From Dermabacter hominis NBRC 106157 (lineage in GTDB: Bacteria > Actinomycetota > Actinomycetes > Actinomycetales > Dermabacteraceae): a stretch of 64,000 bases of DNA. The stretch is taken from positions 62,001 through 126,000 of the forward strand of contig NZ_BCSI01000002.1 of NCBI RefSeq assembly GCF_001570785.1, read 5' to 3'. A program made the position numbers and the translations under genes. The notes under the pieces were generated by a model, which saw nothing but the letters and a program-made list of their open reading frames with translations, ran no database searches and had not been told where the DNA came from. Shown here one piece after another: positions 34,025-44,100 of the stretch. Every line of letters starts with the position of its first letter. Within the stretch, counting starts at the first letter, position 1.

Positions 34025-34050
34025 AGTGGAAATTGGCGGCTATTTCCACT
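34025..34050 (-). other. 9-bp inverted repeat across the FAR-HAD stop codon
   Basis: AGTGGAAAT (34025-34033) and ATTTCCACT (34042-34050) pair perfectly with an 8-nt loop that includes the stop codon. No T-run follows on the minus strand; it may be a 3' end stabiliser or a weak terminator. Confidence 0.45.
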
Positions 34051-36298
34051 CGACGATTGGCCAGCGGTTCTTCTTCGCCTCGGCGTACAGACCCAGGTCG
34101 GGCGAGATCGCCGTGGGGTTCCCGAGCACACCGAGCCAGGCGGCGTCGGCATGCGAATCACCGTAACCGTAGGAGTGAGCGAGATCGAAGTTCCCGTTTT
34201 GCGCGTACTTCTTTAGCCAATTTGCGCGGGCCTCGCCGACCACCGGGGGAGTGGCGAGGTAGCCCGTGAGGACGCCGTTTTCTTCGTGCATGTGGGTTGC
34301 CACGACCTCGTCGAAGAGATCCGCGAGGGGCTCCACCAGGATGTCGAGGGCCCCCGTGATGAGGATCGTGCGGTGCCCGGCGGCGCGGTGTTCCTTGAGG
34401 CGTTCGAGTGCCTGGGCTTTAATCTGGCCGCGAACCTTCTCGCCGAGTTCACCCGCGAGAACCTCCTGGAGTTCTGCCGTGGTGAAACCGCGGTAGCGGC
34501 GCATGACGCTTCGAATGAACTCCGAGCGCGAGTGCTGCTCATTGCGCAGGTACTGGGGGAGCGCCCCCGCGAGCTTGACGACTTCCTTTGCGCCACCGGC
34601 GCTTGAACGGGTTTCCTTCACGATCGCGAGATACTGCTGCACGATGTTCTGCGCGATCACGGTGCCGTCGAGGTCAAACACGGCGAGAGTGTCGCTCGAG
34701 GCGGTCAGCTCACTCGGCTTGTGTTCGGCTCGAGCCTTGCGGGCTGCCTTTTGGCGTGAGTAGGCGTTCGTAAGCTCGGTGACAGCGGGCAGGTGGTGAT
34801 CGCGGAAGTACGAGGTCCAGTCGAGATCAGTGATGTCGAAGTCGTACTTCTCGAGGAAGTCCTTGGGCAGCGATGCGCGCAGCGCGCGCGTGTTTGCGTC
34901 GTCAAAGACCATTTCGGTCTTCGTGTACGCCTTGTAGAGACCCATGAACTTCTTGAGGGTGTCGAGGGCGGAGGAGTTCTTGTGGAGCTTGCCTGCCCAG
35001 GAGCGGGTAGTGCGAGTGCCGGGGAGGCGTCCGACGGCAACCTCGGCCGCCTTGACTGCCGTGTTTGTGGCCCAGAACTTCGCCTCTACCAAATCGACCG
35101 ACGGGAAGGTCCACATGGGAACCGCAATCGGCTCGCCCTTGTCGTCCGTCAGGGGATTTTCCACGAAGTAGTCGTGGACGATGCTCACCATCTCGTGGAG
35201 GGGGAGTGGGTTCGAGTTGCCCGAGGCGACCTGGTAGTACGCCTCATCGCCCGTGCGCTCAACGTTCTGAGTTGCCAGCGCAAGGATGACACCGACGATG
35301 TGGTCGACGGGGATGATGTCGAGGATCGAATCGGGCAGGCCCGGGAACTCCGAGAGCCGACCCTTGCCGTAGGCCATGATGAGCGGGTCGGCGACCTTGT
35401 ACCCGTCGATCCAGCCGGGGAAGGGGTGAGAGACAGCGGATTCGATGATGGCGGGACGTACGAAACTCAGGCGGTGGCCTGAATCGGCCCACATCTCTTC
35501 GCCAACGCGCTCGGCCATGGCCTTCGTGAACGTGTAAATGTCCGTCCAGCCAAGCGAGTTCGCGCGCTGGAGGCCGTAATCCTGCAGGCGAGCGCGCACC
35601 CACGCGCGGCGAGCGTCCTCCGCGACCGAGGCGATTGCCTTCGGGCCCATCTTTCCGCTCTTCAGCTCGGCGAGGCGCAGGTTCTTCTTGATCTGTTCGG
35701 GCGTGCGCGAGAGTGCATCGACTTCGCGTGCCGCCGCAAACGCGGCGTCGTATTCTTCGCGCCAGTTCACGTTGTGCGTGAGGCGGCCTTCACGGCACAG
35801 GCCCTTGGCGAGACCGCTCACGTACGAGGTGGACACGTGAATGACGTGGGGATCCTGGCCGCCTGGCAGCGTCTTCTTCGATTCGAGGAGAGCCTCATAC
35901 AGGTTCTTCGCTCCACCCACATTCGTGGCGAAGGCTTCGTTAATGGGCGGGTCGAAGCTCACCGAGCTCGCCGAGTGCACAACGACATCAAACGTGCGCT
36001 CAAGCGGGGGGAGATTCGTCAGGTCGCCCTCGATGACGTCGGTGCGTTCCTCGAAGGCTGTGCGCACGGCATCTTCGCCTACGCGATCACTCCACGAGGT
36101 GAACGACGGCTTGCGCAGCAAGGTGGCAAGCCGCTTCTTACCCGTGAGCGTCCCCTTGGGGCGCACGATAGCCGTCACGCGAACCTCGGGGAAATGCTCG
36201 AGGAAAGCCTGGAGAACAGCCTGGCCTAGAAAGCCTGTCGCCCCCGTGAGAAGAACTTCGCGATACTTGGTATTTGCGCTGGTAGAGGGTACAGACAT
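34040..36298 (-). CDS. fatty acyl-CoA reductase-like SDR fused to a HAD-IB phosphatase domain
   Basis: The 752-aa protein is a fusion. Residues 1-380 form an extended SDR of the male-sterility/fatty-acyl-reductase type: LLTGATGFLGQAVL (NADPH site), VVHSASSVSFDPP, and YTFTKAMAE with the catalytic Tyr and Lys. A FAR-like C-terminal helical region covers about 420-520. Residues 555-752 form a HAD-IB phosphatase domain: AVFDLDGTV (nucleophile Asp), LITGALDILVEPLA and YGYGDSHADAAWLG. The reductase half would turn acyl-CoA or acyl-ACP into fatty alcohol or aldehyde; the HAD half may dephosphorylate a lipid intermediate. The ATG follows GAGGA. It is divergent from the SDR-PlsC-AGPS operon, and the four genes together suggest ether-lipid synthesis. 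Confidence 0.85.
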   Translation of the reverse strand: MSVPSTSANTKYREVLLTGATGFLGQAVLQAFLEHFPEVRVTAIVRPKGTLTGKKRLATLLRKPSFTSWSDRVGEDAVRTAFEERTDVIEGDLTNLPPLERTFDVVVHSASSVSFDPPINEAFATNVGGAKNLYEALLESKKTLPGGQDPHVIHVSTSYVSGLAKGLCREGRLTHNVNWREEYDAAFAAAREVDALSRTPEQIKKNLRLAELKSGKMGPKAIASVAEDARRAWVRARLQDYGLQRANSLGWTDIYTFTKAMAERVGEEMWADSGHRLSFVRPAIIESAVSHPFPGWIDGYKVADPLIMAYGKGRLSEFPGLPDSILDIIPVDHIVGVILALATQNVERTGDEAYYQVASGNSNPLPLHEMVSIVHDYFVENPLTDDKGEPIAVPMWTFPSVDLVEAKFWATNTAVKAAEVAVGRLPGTRTTRSWAGKLHKNSSALDTLKKFMGLYKAYTKTEMVFDDANTRALRASLPKDFLEKYDFDITDLDWTSYFRDHHLPAVTELTNAYSRQKAARKARAEHKPSELTASSDTLAVFDLDGTVIAQNIVQQYLAIVKETRSSAGGAKEVVKLAGALPQYLRNEQHSRSEFIRSVMRRYRGFTTAELQEVLAGELGEKVRGQIKAQALERLKEHRAAGHRTILITGALDILVEPLADLFDEVVATHMHEENGVLTGYLATPPVVGEARANWLKKYAQNGNFDLAHSYGYGDSHADAAWLGVLGNPTAISPDLGLYAEAKKNRWPIVEWK

Positions 36299-36368
36299 GC
36301 GTTTAAATCCTCGCGATCGAGCATTGGTGAAAGTACTGGGGCGCCCGCGTGGGCATGCGTGCCTAGTG

Positions 36369-36374
36369 TATCGT
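36369..36374 (+). promoter_or_regulatory. leaderless -10 box of the SDR-plsC-agpS operon
   Basis: TATCGT lies 7 nt before the SDR ATG; AGGGG in the spacer could also serve as a weak ribosome site. Confidence 0.5.
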
Positions 36375-36381
36375 AGGGGCC

Positions 36382-37200
36382 ATGCATAGGGCCCTCATCA
36401 CCGGCGGCACCTCTGGTATTGGGGCCGCTTTCGCGCGCGAATTCGCCAAGCGGCGTGTCGACCTCGTGCTGGTCGCCCGCAACGCCGATCGTCTTTCGCG
36501 TTTCGCACAAGACCTCCGCACCCGCTACGACATCGATGTTGAAGAGATGGTGTGCGATCTCGAAGTTGTCGCAGATCGCGATCGCGTCGAAGAGCGTCTA
36601 GCCCAAGAAAGCAGCGAGCACCCGGCAGTCGACATCCTCGTGAACAACGCAGGTTTCAGCGTGCGTAGCGACATTCTCGGCGAGGACCTCTCGCTTCACG
36701 ACTCGGGTATCGACGTGATGATCAGGGCCGTCTTCCACCTCTCTAATGCAGCCGGCCGCGCCATGGCTCGCCGCGGCAAAGGGTGGGTCATCAACGTGAA
36801 CTCCGTTTCCGGTTATCTCCCGCAAAACAACTACTCTGCGATCAAGGCGTGGGGCAATACCTACACCGAAGCGCTCGCGGTTCGCCTCGCGGGCAGCGGT
36901 GTGCGAGTGACCTCGCTCCAGCCGGGCTGGGTTCGTACCGAGTTCCACGAGCGTGCGGGTATCTCCGGTTCTTCGATCCCCGACTTCCTGTGGCTCTCGC
37001 CGGAGCGCCTCGTGAGGGAATGCCTGCAGGATGTGGCGCGCGGAAAGCTCATCTCGGTCCCCTCAAAGCGCTTTAAGGTGCTCGCTTTCCTCGCGCGGAT
37101 CGCTCCCCGGAACATCATGCATTCAATCGCGGCGTGGTTCACCAAACGGCGCAACAGCGAGAAGCCGCTTTCTCAATCCGTCACGAAGGGAAGCAAGTGA
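36382..37200 (+). CDS. short-chain dehydrogenase/reductase, candidate acyl/alkyl-DHAP reductase
   Basis: The 272-aa classical SDR has TGGTSGIGAAFAREFA (cofactor loop; following basic residues favour NADPH), VNNAGFS, and the catalytic Ser-Tyr-Lys in NVNSVSGYLPQNNYSAIKAW. A basic tail (FTKRRNSEK) follows a hydrophobic segment. It is the first gene of an operon with PlsC and alkyl-DHAP synthase, joined by GTGA and ATGA overlaps. In that setting the missing step is reduction of the ketone of acyl- or alkyl-DHAP, done in animals by an SDR; the assignment of this substrate is inference from context. Confidence 0.85.
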   Translation: MHRALITGGTSGIGAAFAREFAKRRVDLVLVARNADRLSRFAQDLRTRYDIDVEEMVCDLEVVADRDRVEERLAQESSEHPAVDILVNNAGFSVRSDILGEDLSLHDSGIDVMIRAVFHLSNAAGRAMARRGKGWVINVNSVSGYLPQNNYSAIKAWGNTYTEALAVRLAGSGVRVTSLQPGWVRTEFHERAGISGSSIPDFLWLSPERLVRECLQDVARGKLISVPSKRFKVLAFLARIAPRNIMHSIAAWFTKRRNSEKPLSQSVTKGSK

Positions 37201-37907
37201 GCAGGTATCACGACCCCTCCCTTTACCGTTCGACCTGGCGCGCGTACCTTCGCGCGCTGCTCGTGCGAGTCGGATTCAAGGGCGTCGTGAAGAGCGCCGT
37301 GACGCAGAAGATCGTCGTCGATCCCGCAGTGAAAAAGGTGCGCGGTGCCTACCTGCTCGTCGCGAACCACTCGAGCCACCTCGATGCGCCTATGCTGGCG
37401 CAAGGCCTCCCCTTTACCCAGGGAAAATACCTCTCCACGGGCGTCGCGCGAGAGTACTTCTTTGACATTTGGTACCGCCGCATCTTCGTGCGAGCACTCT
37501 TCAATGCCTTCCCCATCGACCGCGACGGCTCCCGCAAGCACTCGGGCATCACGCGAACACTGCTCACCGCGGGCATTCCCGTGCTTGTTTTTCCCGAGGG
37601 GACACGGTCGAAGACGGGGAAGATGGCCGAGTTCAAACCCGGCGCTGCGTCACTCGCCATCAGCGAAAACGTGCCCGTCATTCCAGCTGCACTGATCGGT
37701 GCGCATGAAGCGATGCCCAAAGGCCGCAGCTGGCCAAAGCCGGGAAGGCCCCCGGTCGGGGTCGTCATTGGTGCGCCCCTTCGAGCTGAGGAAGGCGAAA
37801 GCGCACTCAGCTTCAACGCGAGGATTCAGGCGGCCGTCCGAACCCTTAGAGCCCACAATTACGAAGCCATCATGGGAACCCAACCACCCGAGGAGCAAGC
37901 GTCATGA
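37197..37907 (+). CDS. PlsC-type 1-acyl-glycerol-3-phosphate acyltransferase
   Basis: The 236-aa protein has the acyltransferase motifs in order: NHSSHLDAP (the H-x4-D catalytic pair near residue 58), FPIDRDGSR (motif II), FPEGTRSKTGKMAEFKPGAA (motif III, phosphate binding) and VPVIPAALIG (motif IV). It would acylate lysophosphatidate, or its 1-alkyl counterpart in an ether-lipid pathway; it might instead acylate DHAP. The GTG start overlaps the SDR stop (GTGA) after AAGGGAA; its own stop overlaps the AGPS ATG. Confidence 0.9.
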   Translation: MSRYHDPSLYRSTWRAYLRALLVRVGFKGVVKSAVTQKIVVDPAVKKVRGAYLLVANHSSHLDAPMLAQGLPFTQGKYLSTGVAREYFFDIWYRRIFVRALFNAFPIDRDGSRKHSGITRTLLTAGIPVLVFPEGTRSKTGKMAEFKPGAASLAISENVPVIPAALIGAHEAMPKGRSWPKPGRPPVGVVIGAPLRAEEGESALSFNARIQAAVRTLRAHNYEAIMGTQPPEEQAS

Positions 37908-39607
37908 ACAGCCCCATTTCGGCACGCGAGGTTAAGCGACACAAGTGGTGGGGGTGGGGTCTTGACGACATCACCTTCCGCTGGGACAACAAGCCCGCTT
38001 TCCCCGGCTTCGCAAAGTCGAAGATCGGCATGGACCTTGAGAAGCTCACGCCGGCACCGGAGCCGCAACTGAGCGACTACGACGTTCCCGCGAGCCGCCT
38101 CGGCGCCGAGGACCGCGCCGCTCTCGCCGGCATTGTTGGCAAAGACAACCTTCTCGATGACGACGAGTACCGCGTCGTTCACTCTTTCGGTCGCTCCGTG
38201 ATCGACCTGTTCCGCGCGCGCACCGGGGACTTTGCTCGCATCGTCGACGCCGTGATCTACCCGAAGAGCGACGATGAGGTCCAGCAGATCCTCGCCTACA
38301 TCGTCGACCACGACCTCGTGGCGATCCCCTACGGCGGCGGCTCCTCGATCTCCGGATCCGTCACCCCGAACGTTGACGAGCAGCGCGCCATCATCACGAT
38401 CAACCTCGGCCGTATGCGCGAGGTCATCTCGATCGACGATACCTCCGGCCTCGCCCGCGTTGAGGCCGGCGTGTACGGTCCCGATCTCGAAGAGCAGCTC
38501 AACGAGCTCGGTTGGACGATGGGGCACTTCCCCGACTCGTTCACCTATTCGACGCTCGGTGGCTGGGCCGCGACACGCTCGACCGGCATGCAGTCGGATC
38601 GCTACGGCGACATTGAGGACATCGTGCGGGGTCTCAGGGTCGTGCGCCCCGACGGCATTGTCGAGACCAAGCCGATCCCCGGCCGCGACTCCGGTTCGAG
38701 CATCCACGAAATGATTCTCGGTTCCGAAGGTCGCCTCGGCGTCATCACGGAATGCACCGTGCGCGTGCATCGCATGGCGGAAAACCGCGTCGTCATCGCG
38801 TACATGTTCCCCGATTGGGAATCCGGCATCCGCGGCATGCACGCCATTGCCCGTAGCGAAGTCCACCCCGTGTTCACGCGCCTGAGCGACGGCCCGGAGA
38901 CTGCCTTCAGCCTGTCGATGCTCAAAGAGCCCAAGGATAAAAAGGGAGAAATCACCCGCAAGGTCCAGGACACCCTTTTCGCCTATCTGCGCAAAAAGGG
39001 CTGGGACACCGAGAACGAGATGTGCATGAGCTACGTGTGCTTCGAAGGCTCGAAGGCCCAGATCAGCCGCGAGCAGGCCGCAGTGAAGAAGATCGTCAAG
39101 AAGGCCGGCGGCATTACCCTCGGTGCGGGCCCCGGGGCGATCTACGATCAGAAGAAGTTCGATACCCCCTACCTTCGTGACTTCCTTCTCGGCCTCAACG
39201 TGTTCGGCGACGTCTCCGATACTGGCACCACGTGGGCACGGATTAACGAGATGCACTCGAAGGTGTATGACACGTTCTACGCGAAGCTCGATGAGCTCGG
39301 GATTCCCGGCTTCTTCTTCTGCCACATGAGCCACAGCTATCACCAGGGTGCATGTCTGTACTTCACGTTCGCCGTTCCCTATGCGAACAACGAGGTCATG
39401 CTCGAGCAGTACACGGCGATCAAGCACGCGGTGCAAAGCGAGTTCCAGAAGCACGCCGGCACTCTTTCGCACCACCACGCGGTCGGAACTGAGCACCAGC
39501 CCTGGATTGAGGAAGAGGCCGGTCCTCTCGGCGTCAAGATGATGCGTGATCTCTACGAGACTCAGGATCCGGGCAAGAACCTCAACCCCGGCAAGATCGT
39601 TTCCTGA
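37904..39607 (+). CDS. agpS: alkyldihydroxyacetonephosphate synthase-like FAD enzyme
   Basis: The 567-aa flavoprotein matches peroxisomal AGPS along its length rather than generic glycolate or lactate oxidases. It has the FAD loop PYGGGSSISGSV (about residue 145), PDSFTYSTLGGWAATRSTGMQSDRYGDIED, GSEGRLGVITE, MSHSYHQGACLYFTFA and the active-site triple-His LSHHHAVGT followed by WIEEE. The enzyme swaps the acyl chain of acyl-DHAP for a fatty alcohol, making the ether bond. No membrane helix or peroxisome signal is present. The ATG overlaps the PlsC stop, and a terminator follows. AGPS-like proteins are annotated in other actinobacteria, often without proof of ether-lipid synthesis. Confidence 0.88.
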   Translation: MNSPISAREVKRHKWWGWGLDDITFRWDNKPAFPGFAKSKIGMDLEKLTPAPEPQLSDYDVPASRLGAEDRAALAGIVGKDNLLDDDEYRVVHSFGRSVIDLFRARTGDFARIVDAVIYPKSDDEVQQILAYIVDHDLVAIPYGGGSSISGSVTPNVDEQRAIITINLGRMREVISIDDTSGLARVEAGVYGPDLEEQLNELGWTMGHFPDSFTYSTLGGWAATRSTGMQSDRYGDIEDIVRGLRVVRPDGIVETKPIPGRDSGSSIHEMILGSEGRLGVITECTVRVHRMAENRVVIAYMFPDWESGIRGMHAIARSEVHPVFTRLSDGPETAFSLSMLKEPKDKKGEITRKVQDTLFAYLRKKGWDTENEMCMSYVCFEGSKAQISREQAAVKKIVKKAGGITLGAGPGAIYDQKKFDTPYLRDFLLGLNVFGDVSDTGTTWARINEMHSKVYDTFYAKLDELGIPGFFFCHMSHSYHQGACLYFTFAVPYANNEVMLEQYTAIKHAVQSEFQKHAGTLSHHHAVGTEHQPWIEEEAGPLGVKMMRDLYETQDPGKNLNPGKIVS

Positions 39608-40148: not shown

Positions 40149-41099
40149 TTACTGCTTACCGAAGGTCTGGCCGGGGTTGTCCTGCGGTCCCTGATTGCCA
40201 GGTTCGCCGAACGAGTTCCCCTGGAAGCCCTGCTGAGGCGGCTGGTGCCCCTGCTGTGGTGCTTCGTAGCTGCCCTGCTGGGGAGCCTGGTAGCTCGGCG
40301 GCTGGGGCGCGTTCGAGGTGCCCTGCGAGGGGTGCTGGCCGAAGCTCGGCTGGGCACCCGGCTGTGCCTGCTGCCCCTGCGGCTGCGCGCCTCCGTGGGT
40401 CGAGCTCTGGAAGGATCCCTGCTGCTGGAAGTGTGCGTCGCCGGCACCGGACTTCTTCTTGCGCTTCATGAACACGAGGGCGCCGATGACAACCGCCGCA
40501 AGGACAAGGAGAAGAACAACAACGACCACGATGATGACGATGAGCCAGGGGAAGCTGCTGCCCTCGGCCTTGATGTTGATGTCTGAGAAGTATTCTTTCG
40601 TGTCGGTGATGTGGACCTTGTTGCCGTCGATCTTGCCGACGCTCGATTCGGTGACCTTGCCGGGGAAAACGAAGGTGAAATCAACCTTGAAGCCGGCAGC
40701 CGCCGCCTGGTCGCCAAACGACCCTTTGGAGGCTTCCTTGTAGGTGTAGGTGTCCGATTCCTTGTCGTACTTCAAGGCATCGCCCATGGGGTTTTTTTCA
40801 TCCTTTTGGCCAGAGAAAGTGCACACGACCTCGTCGTCTTTCTCCTCTAGCTTGAGATCTGGCTTGGTCTCGCCAGTAAATTCCTCAAGAGCTTCATCGC
40901 CGCAGAACTGAGAGGGGGTCATGCCGATTTCCTCGAGCGAGGATTTCTTTATTGAGACGACACCCTCGAGGGTGATCTTTTCGGGGCTCTCGATGGTGAC
41001 CGTCGCGTCGAGCTTGCCGCAGCCCGCAACGACGAGCATGAACGGGATGAGCATTAACGCTGCGATCTTCTTCAAAGGGTTGGCCTGTGGTGCTGTCAC
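40149..41099 (-). CDS. LppM-like lipoprotein with C-terminal membrane anchor and Gln/Pro-rich tail
   Basis: The 316-aa protein has a lipobox VAGC at residues 24-27, a beta-rich domain of about 150 residues (LDATVTIESPEKITLEGVVSI ... VFPGKVTESSVGKIDGNKVHITDTK), one membrane helix (FPWLIVIIVVVVVLLLVLAAVVIG), KRKKK, and a cytoplasmic tail of about 85 residues rich in Gln, Pro, Gly with repeated PPQQGF/APQQG units. The layout matches LppM (Rv2171-type) proteins, which in mycobacteria influence phagocytosis. GTG start after AGAGG. It lies 9 bp after a paralogue. Confidence 0.82.
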   Translation of the reverse strand: MTAPQANPLKKIAALMLIPFMLVVAGCGKLDATVTIESPEKITLEGVVSIKKSSLEEIGMTPSQFCGDEALEEFTGETKPDLKLEEKDDEVVCTFSGQKDEKNPMGDALKYDKESDTYTYKEASKGSFGDQAAAAGFKVDFTFVFPGKVTESSVGKIDGNKVHITDTKEYFSDINIKAEGSSFPWLIVIIVVVVVLLLVLAAVVIGALVFMKRKKKSGAGDAHFQQQGSFQSSTHGGAQPQGQQAQPGAQPSFGQHPSQGTSNAPQPPSYQAPQQGSYEAPQQGHQPPQQGFQGNSFGEPGNQGPQDNPGQTFGKQ

Positions 41100-41108
41100 A
41101 AGGAACCT

Positions 41109-42002
41109 CTACTTTCGTGGAATCCGGAATGTGGTGGACAAATCTGTGGGTACTTCAGCGGCCTGCGGAACCGGGGCTTGGGGGTCGCTATCGATACTGG
41201 CCTGACCTTTGTAATGTCGAGAATCGGCGCCTTCGGGACTTCGATAGTTTGGCTCGCGTATCTCGGGCTGCTGGCCTGGCCTACTTTGTTGCGTAGATGA
41301 GCCGTTTTGAAACGTTTGGGCGTTTGCGGCAGGGCTCTTTTTCCTTTTGCGAGCGATGACAATGAGAGCCGTGATGGCGAGAGCCGCAAAGAAGAGGAGC
41401 GCAAGTGCCACCGCAATAATGATGACGACAATGAGCCAGGGGAACCCGGGGCCCTCGGACTTGATCTCGTAGTCCGAGAGGAAACTCTCGATACTGCTGA
41501 TCTGAACCTTGTTGCCGCTGATCCTGCCGACGTTCGATTCAGTAACCTTGCCTGGCATGACGATGGTGACGCTAGTCATGAAGGCGCCGAGAGAGAGCCG
41601 CTCGGCGATTTCAGGGGCAGGCATGATCCCCTTCAGTGTGTAGGTGTTCGAGTCCTTGTCGTAAGTGAGGATCTGCTTGAGCTGTTCGGGATCCTCTATC
41701 GTACTGGTGAATTCGCACTCGAAGATGTCGCCTGTTTCGGTCAGCTTGGTCTTGAGTGTGCCTTCGAAGGCTGGTCCACCAGCACCCGTCGTATCTTTCG
41801 AGGTACAAACATCCGCGGGTTTCATGCCGTATTTTTCAAGCACCGAACTGTACCCCCGAGCAACGCCTTCGAGGACAACTTTGTCGGCGCTTTCTACTGT
41901 CATGGTTGCTTTGAGGTCCCCGCAGCCGGCGATGAGGAGGAGAAAAGGAATCACTAAGAGCGCAGCGAACTTTCTCAGGGGGTTCGACTGAGTCGTCGTC
42001 AT
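41109..42002 (-). CDS. LppM-like lipoprotein, tandem paralogue
   Basis: The 297-aa protein parallels its downstream neighbour: SNPLRKFAALLVIPFLLLIAGCG signal with lipobox IAGC, a domain with LKATMTVESADKVVLEGVA and VMPGKVTESNVGRISGNKVQIS, a membrane helix starting FPWLIVVIIIAVALALLFFAAL, then RKRKK and a shorter polar tail without the Gln repeats. AAGGT precedes the ATG at 42000-42002. The two genes are 9 bp apart and arose by tandem duplication. The different tails suggest different inner partners for a shared outer domain. Confidence 0.82.
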   Translation of the reverse strand: MTTTQSNPLRKFAALLVIPFLLLIAGCGDLKATMTVESADKVVLEGVARGYSSVLEKYGMKPADVCTSKDTTGAGGPAFEGTLKTKLTETGDIFECEFTSTIEDPEQLKQILTYDKDSNTYTLKGIMPAPEIAERLSLGAFMTSVTIVMPGKVTESNVGRISGNKVQISSIESFLSDYEIKSEGPGFPWLIVVIIIAVALALLFFAALAITALIVIARKRKKSPAANAQTFQNGSSTQQSRPGQQPEIREPNYRSPEGADSRHYKGQASIDSDPQAPVPQAAEVPTDLSTTFRIPRK

Positions 42003-42061
42003 GGGGAGACCTTGCGTGTAAAGGGACGGGCGCGACTGTACTCTAACGCACAACCATGGTC

Positions 42062-42892
42062 TTATTCTTCGCCTTCCCGTGAGGCCGAACCAGGCGGCAT
42101 ACCTTCGCCGAAGACGGGCGAGGCTTCGGGCCGTTTGGGATGCACGGCATCTCCCGAGCTTTCGCCGCGGATGCGCCGCATTACCCAGGGGCCGAGGTGA
42201 TCGCGCGCCCACACGAGGTCCTTTTCTGCTGCCTGGCGCCACGTGCGCTGCGGCGGGTCGTGGGGCGTGAATTCGCGGAGGTTGTTCGGGACGTCGAGAA
42301 CGGCGAGGACTTCGCGCGCAATCGTGTGGTGCCCAAGAGGTGAAAAATGCAGGCGGTCCTCGGCCCACATGCTTTCGTGAACGAGCTGGCGCGCAGCCCA
42401 CAGATCTACGACGAATGCGTTGTATCGTTTGGCGATCGTGCGCATGTTTTCGTTGTAGATCGCGGAGCGCCCACGGATGAGGTTGAGAACGGGGGTGTTG
42501 CCGACGTCGGGCCCTGTCCACAGGATGATGTCGGTGCCTGTCTCAGCGAGGCGCGCGACGGCGACGTCGATTTCGGAAGCGATCTCGTCGGGATCGCCGC
42601 GCCGGATCACGTCGTTGCCTCCCGCAAAGAAGCTCACGAGATCCGGCTTGAGGTCGATCGCCGGCTCGAGCTGCTCCTCGATGATTTGTTTGTAGAGCCG
42701 GCCGCGGATCGCGAGGTTCGCGTAGGCGAAATCGGGGCACGTGCGCCCGAGCTCTTCGGCGACGCGATCTGCCCAACCGCGAACCCCTCCGGGCACGTGC
42801 GGATCGGGATCACCGATGCCTTCCGTGAATGAGTCACCGATGGCGACGAATCGCCGCCACGGGTGAAGGGGGGTGGCTGGGACGCTGCTCAT
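42062..42892 (-). CDS. SGNH/GDSL hydrolase
   Basis: The 276-aa protein has the SGNH blocks: AIGDSFTEG (catalytic Ser, block I), a Gly in block II, FFAGGNDV (block III Asn) and EDRLHFSPLGH (block V Asp-x-x-His). It has no signal peptide, so it is a cytoplasmic esterase or thioesterase; the substrate is unknown. GGAGG precedes the ATG, within the end of crgA, so the two are co-transcribed. The C-terminal 60 residues are charged and outside the domain. Confidence 0.88.
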   Translation of the reverse strand: MSSVPATPLHPWRRFVAIGDSFTEGIGDPDPHVPGGVRGWADRVAEELGRTCPDFAYANLAIRGRLYKQIIEEQLEPAIDLKPDLVSFFAGGNDVIRRGDPDEIASEIDVAVARLAETGTDIILWTGPDVGNTPVLNLIRGRSAIYNENMRTIAKRYNAFVVDLWAARQLVHESMWAEDRLHFSPLGHHTIAREVLAVLDVPNNLREFTPHDPPQRTWRQAAEKDLVWARDHLGPWVMRRIRGESSGDAVHPKRPEASPVFGEGMPPGSASREGEE

Positions 42893-43205: not shown

Positions 43206-43359
43206 GGGGTACCTTTCACAACGGTCACGGATGCGCCGGGCCGCCCCGAGGGGTGGGTGCGGTGCCGGCAACGGCATATATTAGGGTACAGTGCGCGAAG
43301 GAATAGGTTGGTGTTATTCCGACGCCCGCCGATTAACCCCCTGCCGAATCGGAGACATT

Positions 43360-44100
43360 GTGCCTTCTTCCCGCCATAGGCGAGCGCCCGAGCGTAAACG
43401 GAGCGTGGTCTCGAGCATTATTGGTGTGCTCGGCGAACTGTTGATTACCGTCGGAGCTTTCCTCCTTCTTTTTGTCGTGTGGCAGCTGTGGTGGACGGAT
43501 GTTATTGCTGACCGCGAGCATGCCGTCATCATCCAGGAGCTCCAGTCGAAGTGGGGCGGGCCCGCGCCGAAGAAGATCGCACCCCCCGAAAAGGGCGAAC
43601 CGCCGAAGATCGAGAATGTCAAAGAAAACGAGGTGTGGGGCGAGCTCCACGTGCCGAAGTTCGATAAGGCCACGTCTCCCATGGCCGAGGGCGTGAGCAT
43701 GGAGAAGGTCCTTAACGTGATCGGCAACGGGCACTATCCCGACACAGCCCTCCCGGGTGAAGTGGGGAACTTCGCGTTTGCGGGTCACCGTTCGACATAC
43801 GGGCGTCCACTGCACGACATCGCGCGGCTTCAGCCCGGTGACCCGGTCATCATTGAGGGGCCGAAGGCCTATTACGTGTACTACGTAACGGGATCGGAGA
43901 TTGTGCAGCCGAACGACGTGCAGGTGATTGCGCCGGTTCCGAATAAGCCGGGGGAGGAGCCAACGGAGCGGATGCTCACCATGACGGCGTGCCACCCCAT
44001 GTATTCGGCTGCGGAGCGGTACATCACGTACGCGAAGTATGACCACTGGGTTGATCGCAGCAAGGGAATCCCCAAAGAGCTCGCGGAGGTTAAGAAGTAA
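43360..44100 (+). CDS. srtE: class E sortase
   Basis: The 246-aa protein has a basic start, one membrane helix (GVLGELLITVGAFLLLFVVWQLWW) and the sortase barrel: FAGHRSTYGRPL with the catalytic His and MTACHPMYSAAERY with the catalytic Cys and, after it, the Arg. The Tyr after the His (HRSTYG) and the genome position are typical of class E, which prefers LAxTG signals and attaches housekeeping surface proteins. I start at the GTG at 43360, after CGGAGA; an upstream in-frame GTG at 43291 is possible but would add a non-conserved stretch. Confidence 0.9.
   Translation: MPSSRHRRAPERKRSVVSSIIGVLGELLITVGAFLLLFVVWQLWWTDVIADREHAVIIQELQSKWGGPAPKKIAPPEKGEPPKIENVKENEVWGELHVPKFDKATSPMAEGVSMEKVLNVIGNGHYPDTALPGEVGNFAFAGHRSTYGRPLHDIARLQPGDPVIIEGPKAYYVYYVTGSEIVQPNDVQVIAPVPNKPGEEPTERMLTMTACHPMYSAAERYITYAKYDHWVDRSKGIPKELAEVKK

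Follow-up and report, generated by a model that had tools for sequence, protein, structure and literature searches.

Gene content and organization of the locus

The window analyzed here is a 64,000-nt stretch of DNA from Dermabacter hominis NBRC 106157 (GCF_001570785.1, contig NZ_BCSI01000002.1, positions 62,001–126,000), whose genome measures 2.16 Mb in 28 contigs. Reading frames and domain searches place four adjacent genes at 34040–39607 of the window: a divergent fatty acyl-CoA reductase fused to a HAD domain (FAR-HAD), a short-chain dehydrogenase/reductase (SDR), a PlsC-family acyltransferase, and a flavoenzyme homologous to alkyl-dihydroxyacetone phosphate synthase (AGPS; dihydroxyacetone phosphate is abbreviated DHAP below). 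A previous interpretation made from the letters alone, here called the sequence-only reading, had proposed an animal-type ether-lipid pathway for this gene set, and all four genes are indeed present. The features are as follows.

34040–36298 (−): FAR-HAD, 752 aa, fatty acyl-CoA reductase with a HAD-IB phosphatase-like domain; would supply the fatty alcohol
36299–36381: 83 bp separating the divergent FAR-HAD and SDR genes; presumed promoter region
36382–37200 (+): SDR, predicted alkyl-(acyl-)DHAP reductase (PexRAP/DHRS7B slot)
37197–37907 (+): PlsC-family acyltransferase, 236 aa, predicted DHAP acyltransferase (GNPAT slot), alternatively an sn-2 acyltransferase
37904–39607 (+): AGPS, 567 aa, predicted alkyl-DHAP synthase, which would exchange acyl for alkyl on acyl-DHAP and form the ether bond
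38531–38539 (+): codons of the P-D-S signature (P210, D211, S212; D211 corresponds to D303 of guinea-pig AGPS)

The coordinates confirm that the SDR, PlsC, and AGPS genes are joined by GTGA and ATGA overlaps and that the reductase is divergent. PlsC starts with the GTG at 37197, within its GTGA overlap with the SDR gene, and the AGPS start overlaps the PlsC end by ATGA; we rejected the PlsC start at 37134 given by the open reading frame (ORF) finder, which would result in a 67-bp overlap with the SDR gene. The starts of the FAR and SDR genes lie 83 bp apart in opposite directions, and no sigma-70-like promoter site was found in the region between them. Plasmid and PHROG searches gave no useful result.

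The flavoenzyme as a predicted alkyl-DHAP synthase

Compared with all solved structures, the window AGPS best matched the alkyl-DHAP synthases of Dictyostelium (2uuu, 8e-103) and guinea pig (4bby, 4e-81), with a far weaker match to D-lactate dehydrogenase (1e-24). Its three motifs named in the sequence-only reading were all recovered: PDSFTYSTLGGW from residue 210, SYHQGACLYF around Y479, and LSHHHAVGT, which holds H523–525. The predicted structural model (mean predicted local distance difference test score, pLDDT, 86.5) aligned with mammalian AGPS over 541 residues (Z 42.3, root-mean-square deviation, rmsd, 2.1 Å), spanning residues 4–566, and with D-lactate dehydrogenases (LDHD) at Z 33.6, spanning residues 66–566. 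Because the AGPS alignment begins at residue 4 and the D-lactate dehydrogenase alignment at 66, the N-terminal part of AGPS is present as well.

Equivalents of guinea-pig H300, T309, R419, R515, Y578, and H615–617, which we take to be the active-site residues of mammalian AGPS, are all kept in the window protein. Mutants of the mammalian enzyme at two of these positions, Arg419His and Tyr578Phe, have solved structures (4bc7 and 4bca, according to the entry titles). Pfam assigned only the generic domains FAD_binding_4 and FAD-oxidase_C, and similarity to the NCBIfam model GlcD fell below the cut-off. With the phylogenetic and neighborhood evidence given below, the sequence and modeled fold indicate that the flavoenzyme is very probably an alkyl-DHAP synthase.

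Two families of bacterial AGPS homologs

A distant “AGPS-like” protein with about 35% identity is common to many actinobacteria and other bacteria; it is, we assume, the protein named agpS in mycobacteria. A tree of 42 sequences (FastTree, midpoint-rooted with no outgroup, eukaryotic rows being partial chains) grouped the window AGPS, its cluster-type relatives, and both eukaryotic enzymes apart from the “AGPS-like” proteins, with a support of 0.96–0.98 for the split and 1.0 for the cluster-type clade. One residue nearly tracks this split: the eukaryotic and cluster-type enzymes have P-D-S, and P-Q-S is found elsewhere. The exception is the enzyme of a Gemmatimonadota metagenome-assembled genome (MAG; locus L110), which has P-D-S yet is placed just across the split.

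Gene neighborhoods follow the same residue. Among 80 named loci, a FAR gene was found within 10 kb of 6/10 P-D-S enzymes, in contrast to 0/66 P-Q-S enzymes. The FAR match at L154 is weak, and two of the four P-D-S enzymes scored as negative are L105, truncated by the end of its contig, and L108, on a 3-kb contig. The Mycobacterium sequence at L120 leads us to infer that Rv3107c (agpS) is of the P-Q-S type. Proteins of the Rv3107c type share the flavoenzyme family and the catalytic histidines with the window AGPS, but differ in the P-Q-S residues, the identity of about 35%, the separate clade, and the lack of a nearby FAR in the 66 named loci. Homology screens at 30% identity, as in PMC11868695, would merge the two types.

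At L081 (9006–12280), an “AGPS-like” gene of the P-Q-S type shares an overlap with one for a protein of the glycerol-3-phosphate oxidase/dehydrogenase type, hinting that the P-Q-S family too may use a DHAP-linked substrate. A myxobacterial MAG (G384, loci L172 and L184) has a strong match to CarF/PEDS1 (PF10520, 1e-55), and its AGPS homolog at L172 is P-Q-S. When AGPS of the type of Myxococcus xanthus MXAN_1676 was sought in the order of a myxobacterial MAG, the relatives at the loci examined had no FAR nearby.

Conservation of the four-gene cluster

The sequence-only reading had suggested searching relatives for a conserved neighborhood, and the four-gene set was found across several families. 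Of 46 other genomes from the genus and family, 43 carry cluster-type AGPS, at 64–98% identity. The whole cluster is shared by at least four GTDB families plus Brevibacterium casei (L109): FAR-HAD, SDR, PlsC, and AGPS stand together in the window family (L064–L074), in families f13 (L075–L077), f19 (L084, L085), and f38 (L086, L087, L089, L090, L102), the last of which, judging by the identical match coordinates of G271 and G380, includes Phytoactinopolyspora limicola, and also in Phytoactinopolyspora (L104) and a Microbacteriaceae MAG (L106). A Propionibacteriaceae MAG (L105) carries SDR-PlsC-AGPS. Gene order and orientation vary between families; the genes are codirectional in L075 and L086, and in L086 all four are joined by short overlaps. 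The clustering has been kept despite changed order and orientation, which, with the codirectional, overlapping arrangement of L086, argues for selection to stay together.

FAR-HAD and AGPS also co-occur at the level of whole genomes. Among 297 genomes of the class, full-length FAR-HAD was found in 31 of 35 carriers of cluster-type AGPS vs. 34 of 262 non-carriers (Fisher 1e-19, a value that ignores kinship). Outside actinobacteria, the Gemmatimonadota MAG has a stand-alone FAR gene directly overlapping its AGPS gene (L110, 8353–11689), and bacterium KW1-S15_112 (L135, 6079–13399) has in series genes for a FAR, a 652-aa protein, an AGPS 43% identical to the guinea-pig chain, an SDR, and a diacylglycerol-kinase-like lipid kinase. 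Since the FAR-AGPS association is present in these two loci as well, it has either arisen or been kept in separate phyla. The 652-aa protein stands where an acyltransferase would be expected, but it matched no Pfam, NCBIfam, or PDB family, and we dropped it as a GNPAT candidate.

Predicted pathway

We infer the substrates and order of steps from sequence as follows. FAR-HAD would convert acyl-CoA (or acyl-ACP) to fatty alcohol, and PlsC would acylate DHAP to 1-acyl-DHAP. AGPS, via a covalent FAD adduct, would then exchange the acyl chain for the fatty alcohol, forming 1-O-alkyl-DHAP, and the SDR would reduce its ketone to 1-O-alkyl-glycerol-3-phosphate. Housekeeping PlsC enzymes and the CDP route could carry this on to alkyl-acyl phospholipids or glycolipids.

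The proposal of an animal-type ether-lipid pathway is supported by sequence, fold, phylogeny, active site, clustering, and co-occurrence with FAR, as is the identity of the flavoenzyme; both the enzyme activity and the pathway product are predictions. We consider it likely that the locus encodes an aerobic-type, DHAP-based, AGPS-dependent alkyl-ether-lipid pathway, and that the organism makes ether lipids with it. The anaerobic PlsA-type route could be set aside as a rival: PF09989, which we take to be the marker of PlsA, was found in 0 of 19 genomes including that of the window, and control genomes matched. PF10520 (CarF/PEDS1 lipid desaturase) was not found in the window genome or 18 other actinobacteria, the positive control G384 being matched, and CarF was likewise rejected. 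Because neither family was found in the genome, the predicted product is plasmanyl (a saturated ether) rather than plasmenyl lipids.

Several observations weigh against such a pathway. A literature search found no lipid reports for the species or family, and, reaching few subscription journals, found nothing published on the four-gene cluster or on ether lipids of Dermabacter or Brachybacterium. M. xanthus lacking its AGPS homolog MXAN_1676 showed only a slight drop in ether lipids (PMC9131029), and carriers of related genes may lack detectable ether lipids, e.g., Pontiella with elbD (PMC11868695). The two proteins do not always travel together: two f38 genomes carry FAR-HAD without cluster-type AGPS, so FAR-HAD has other uses; four f36 genomes, all fragmented drafts, have AGPS with no FAR-HAD detected; and AGPS lies apart from FAR in f36, Kineococcus, and Actinoplanes (L107). 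PlsC and SDR are, moreover, broad families whose substrates here are predictions.

The acyltransferase and reductase

The SDR matched adh_short (3e-35), with the motifs TGGTSGIG and YSAIK; its best NCBIfam model was mycolate reductase, below the cut-off. The Rossmann and Y-x3-K motifs are common to all SDRs and hence say little for assignment to PexRAP/DHRS7B or Ayr1. PlsC matched PF01553 (1e-21) with the motifs NHSSHLD and FPEGTRS, and so has the NHx4D and FPEGTR blocks, which are shared by acyltransferases of DHAP, glycerol-3-phosphate, and lyso-phosphatidate (LPA) and cannot separate them.

The sequence-only reading had noted that a DHAP acyltransferase is missing unless PlsC takes that step. 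This gap is probably not real: the genome contains two further PF01553 (PlsC-family) genes, 28–31% identical to the one in the cluster, which could free the cluster PlsC for DHAP. Because these two proteins could in principle serve ordinary sn-2 acylation, we lean toward the cluster PlsC being a dedicated DHAP acyltransferase. A serious though less favored possibility is an animal-like pathway in which the cluster PlsC instead adds the sn-2 chain to alkyl-glycerol-3-phosphate, DHAP being acylated by one of the other two proteins. Specificity for DHAP vs. lyso-phosphatidate is unreadable from sequence, and the only solved relative is a 1-acyl-glycerol-3-phosphate (LPA) acyltransferase (5kym). 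However, housekeeping enzymes could cover sn-2, a dedicated gene is better explained by a pathway-specific step, and in the Myxococcus operon, too, AGPS is accompanied by an acyltransferase, one that has been called GNPAT-like (PMC9131029).

FAR-HAD and the role of the HAD domain

FAR-HAD combines Pfam NAD_binding_4 (9e-40), the FAR C-terminal “Sterile” domain, and HAD (2e-34), and its best PDB match is a fatty acyl-CoA reductase (7eoz, 1.5e-42). Its reductase part shows the TGxxGFxG and YxxxK motifs of FAR proteins as TGATGFLG and YTFTK, and the HAD part keeps DLDGT and GDSHAD intact; the HAD-IB motifs DxDxT and GDxxxD are present throughout the window family.

The intact catalytic motifs across that family, and the fact that the Myxococcus elb operon encodes a HAD protein of its own, ElbB (PMC9131029), would fit a different product, namely ether neutral lipids or glycolipids: HAD would dephosphorylate alkyl-DHAP or alkyl-glycerol-3-phosphate to alkylglycerol, which PlsC and other enzymes would then acylate. 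We regard this as unlikely. Cluster-bearing relatives of f13, f19, and f38 have H, E, or Q in place of the second Asp of motif I (DLHGT, DLEGT, DLQKT), as in the orthologs at L075, L076, L077, L084–L087, L089, and L090, where HAD has become non-canonical but is still fused to FAR. Because of this loss, a phosphatase step is not a shared part of the pathway, and the case for HAD as an essential phosphatase is weakened.

A second FAR-HAD type, about 43% identical, occurs at L091–L103 (e.g., L100, 8447–14856) in a different conserved cluster that lacks AGPS and comprises FAR-HAD, a zinc alcohol dehydrogenase, a protein with a lactate-racemase N domain, and PlsC. Kineococcus (f14, to which it is assigned because G382 and G076 give identical coordinates) and f8 carry this type at a locus separate from AGPS.

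Plasmalogens and a diiron protein in relatives

That the product is a plasmalogen (vinyl ether), made via an unrecognized desaturase, is improbable for the window organism, whose genome has no match for CarF/PEDS1, PF09989, or the diiron protein of relatives described below. What speaks for it comes from other actinobacteria: aerobic Kineococcus rubinsiae contains anteiso-15:0 dimethylacetal, as do Subtercola species (PMC7472656), and Kineococcus indalonis has cluster-type AGPS and FAR-HAD with no CarF or PF09989 match. The authors described the Kineococcus dimethylacetal as surprising at first sight and cited Subtercola as a precedent among aerobes (PMC7472656). We found no genetic explanation for these aerobic plasmalogens. 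Subtercola belongs to the Microbacteriaceae, the family of one MAG with the whole cluster. The link of Kineococcus and Subtercola to the cluster is circumstantial, as different species are involved.

In 11 cluster loci (L075, L076, L077, L084, L085, L087, L104, L106, L109, L210, L211), a 264-aa diiron protein (e.g., L075, 15365–16159, −) is encoded beside FAR, adjoined by a paralog (e.g., L084, 11056–11862, −) that has lost the His ligands. It has two ExxH motifs and two more conserved Glu. Its modeled structure (pLDDT 85) most resembles plant stearoyl-ACP desaturases (Z 19, rmsd about 3 Å), followed by mycobacterial DesA2 (Z 17) and other diiron proteins (Z 15–16). Among the 297 genomes, the protein occurs in 22 of 24 with cluster-type FAR-HAD vs. 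2 of 273 others (7e-29, again ignoring kinship). It is present in part of the window family, but neither the window genus nor the K. indalonis draft yielded a copy; as a source of the Kineococcus dimethylacetals it is therefore unsupported.

A bolder scheme, which we think doubtful, takes the four genes as the core of an ether-lipid pathway widespread in actinobacteria, to which many relatives add the soluble diiron protein, with its ligand-less paralog as partner, as a new plasmanyl Δ1′ desaturase unrelated to CarF/PEDS1, the window genus having lost or never gained this last step. If true, plasmalogens of aerobic actinobacteria would come from a route not known before. Other possible roles of the pair are desaturation of acyl chains and a reaction on the fatty aldehyde that FAR makes.

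Finally, the flavoenzyme is very unlikely to be a D-2-hydroxy-acid dehydrogenase of the VAO/PCMH superfamily, with free fatty alcohols or wax-type esters as the cluster product: the generic Pfam domains, the sub-threshold GlcD similarity, and the occurrence of FAR-HAD without AGPS would allow it, but the N-terminal region favors AGPS, as do fold, tree, and active-site residues, and on the last three we rejected the hydroxy-acid oxidase reading.

Beyond the cluster, the window encodes two neighboring predicted lipoproteins that resemble each other and end in a C-terminal membrane helix (40149–42521, −), followed by a GDSL-like esterase (42062–42892, −) and a sortase-like gene (43291–44100, +), all named from their translations only.

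Comparison with known ether-lipid systems

The dedicated steps of animal ether-lipid synthesis are those of FAR1, GNPAT, AGPS, and PexRAP (PMC9131029, PMC9702350). The window cluster has the same four predicted activities, one gene each, and resembles the peroxisomal module in the AGPS fold, active-site residues, and P-D-S, and in the NAD_binding_4 plus Sterile architecture of FAR. It differs in being one bacterial gene cluster with no peroxisome, in the fusion of FAR to HAD, in an acyltransferase of PlsC size (236 aa), and in that no CarF/PEDS1 gene was found for the plasmalogen step.

We consider the M. xanthus operon MXAN_1676–1674 to be the nearest bacterial precedent. It encodes AGPS, a FAR-GNPAT fusion, and an NAD epimerase, and its disruption has only a minor effect (PMC9131029). 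Compared by description, both systems are found in aerobic bacteria and unite AGPS, FAR, an acyltransferase, and a gene of reductase type, but FAR is fused to the acyltransferase there and to HAD here; what distinguishes the window type is this fusion of FAR to HAD, PlsC and SDR as separate proteins, and wide conservation among actinobacteria. The M. xanthus elbA–E genes likewise form an ether-lipid operon with a FAR-like domain, an acyltransferase, a HAD protein, and reductases, but it lacks an AGPS gene, and its ElbD is a single multidomain protein that includes acyl-CoA synthetase (ACS) and acyl carrier protein (ACP) domains. No ElbD-type FAR-ACS-ACP-acyltransferase protein was found among the ORFs at 30–44 kb of the window, the part of the genome searched for it, where FAR is fused only to HAD. 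The anaerobic plsA/plsR route and Ger share with the window cluster the class of end product, sn-1 ether lipids, but reduce an ester of finished phospholipids, and PF09989 is the family not found in the window genome.

Implications

Ether lipids made by an aerobic route are known in bacteria mainly from myxobacteria; the distribution of the cluster suggests that ordinary aerobic bacteria probably make them by an animal-like route more often than has been assumed. The P-D-S vs. P-Q-S difference provides a one-residue signature separating likely true AGPS from look-alikes. The cluster also adds simple bacterial models of the disease-related AGPS and GNPAT, and bears on the origin of the eukaryotic ether-lipid pathway. 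For aerobic actinobacteria, the four-gene set offers a directly testable genetic explanation for their plasmalogens.

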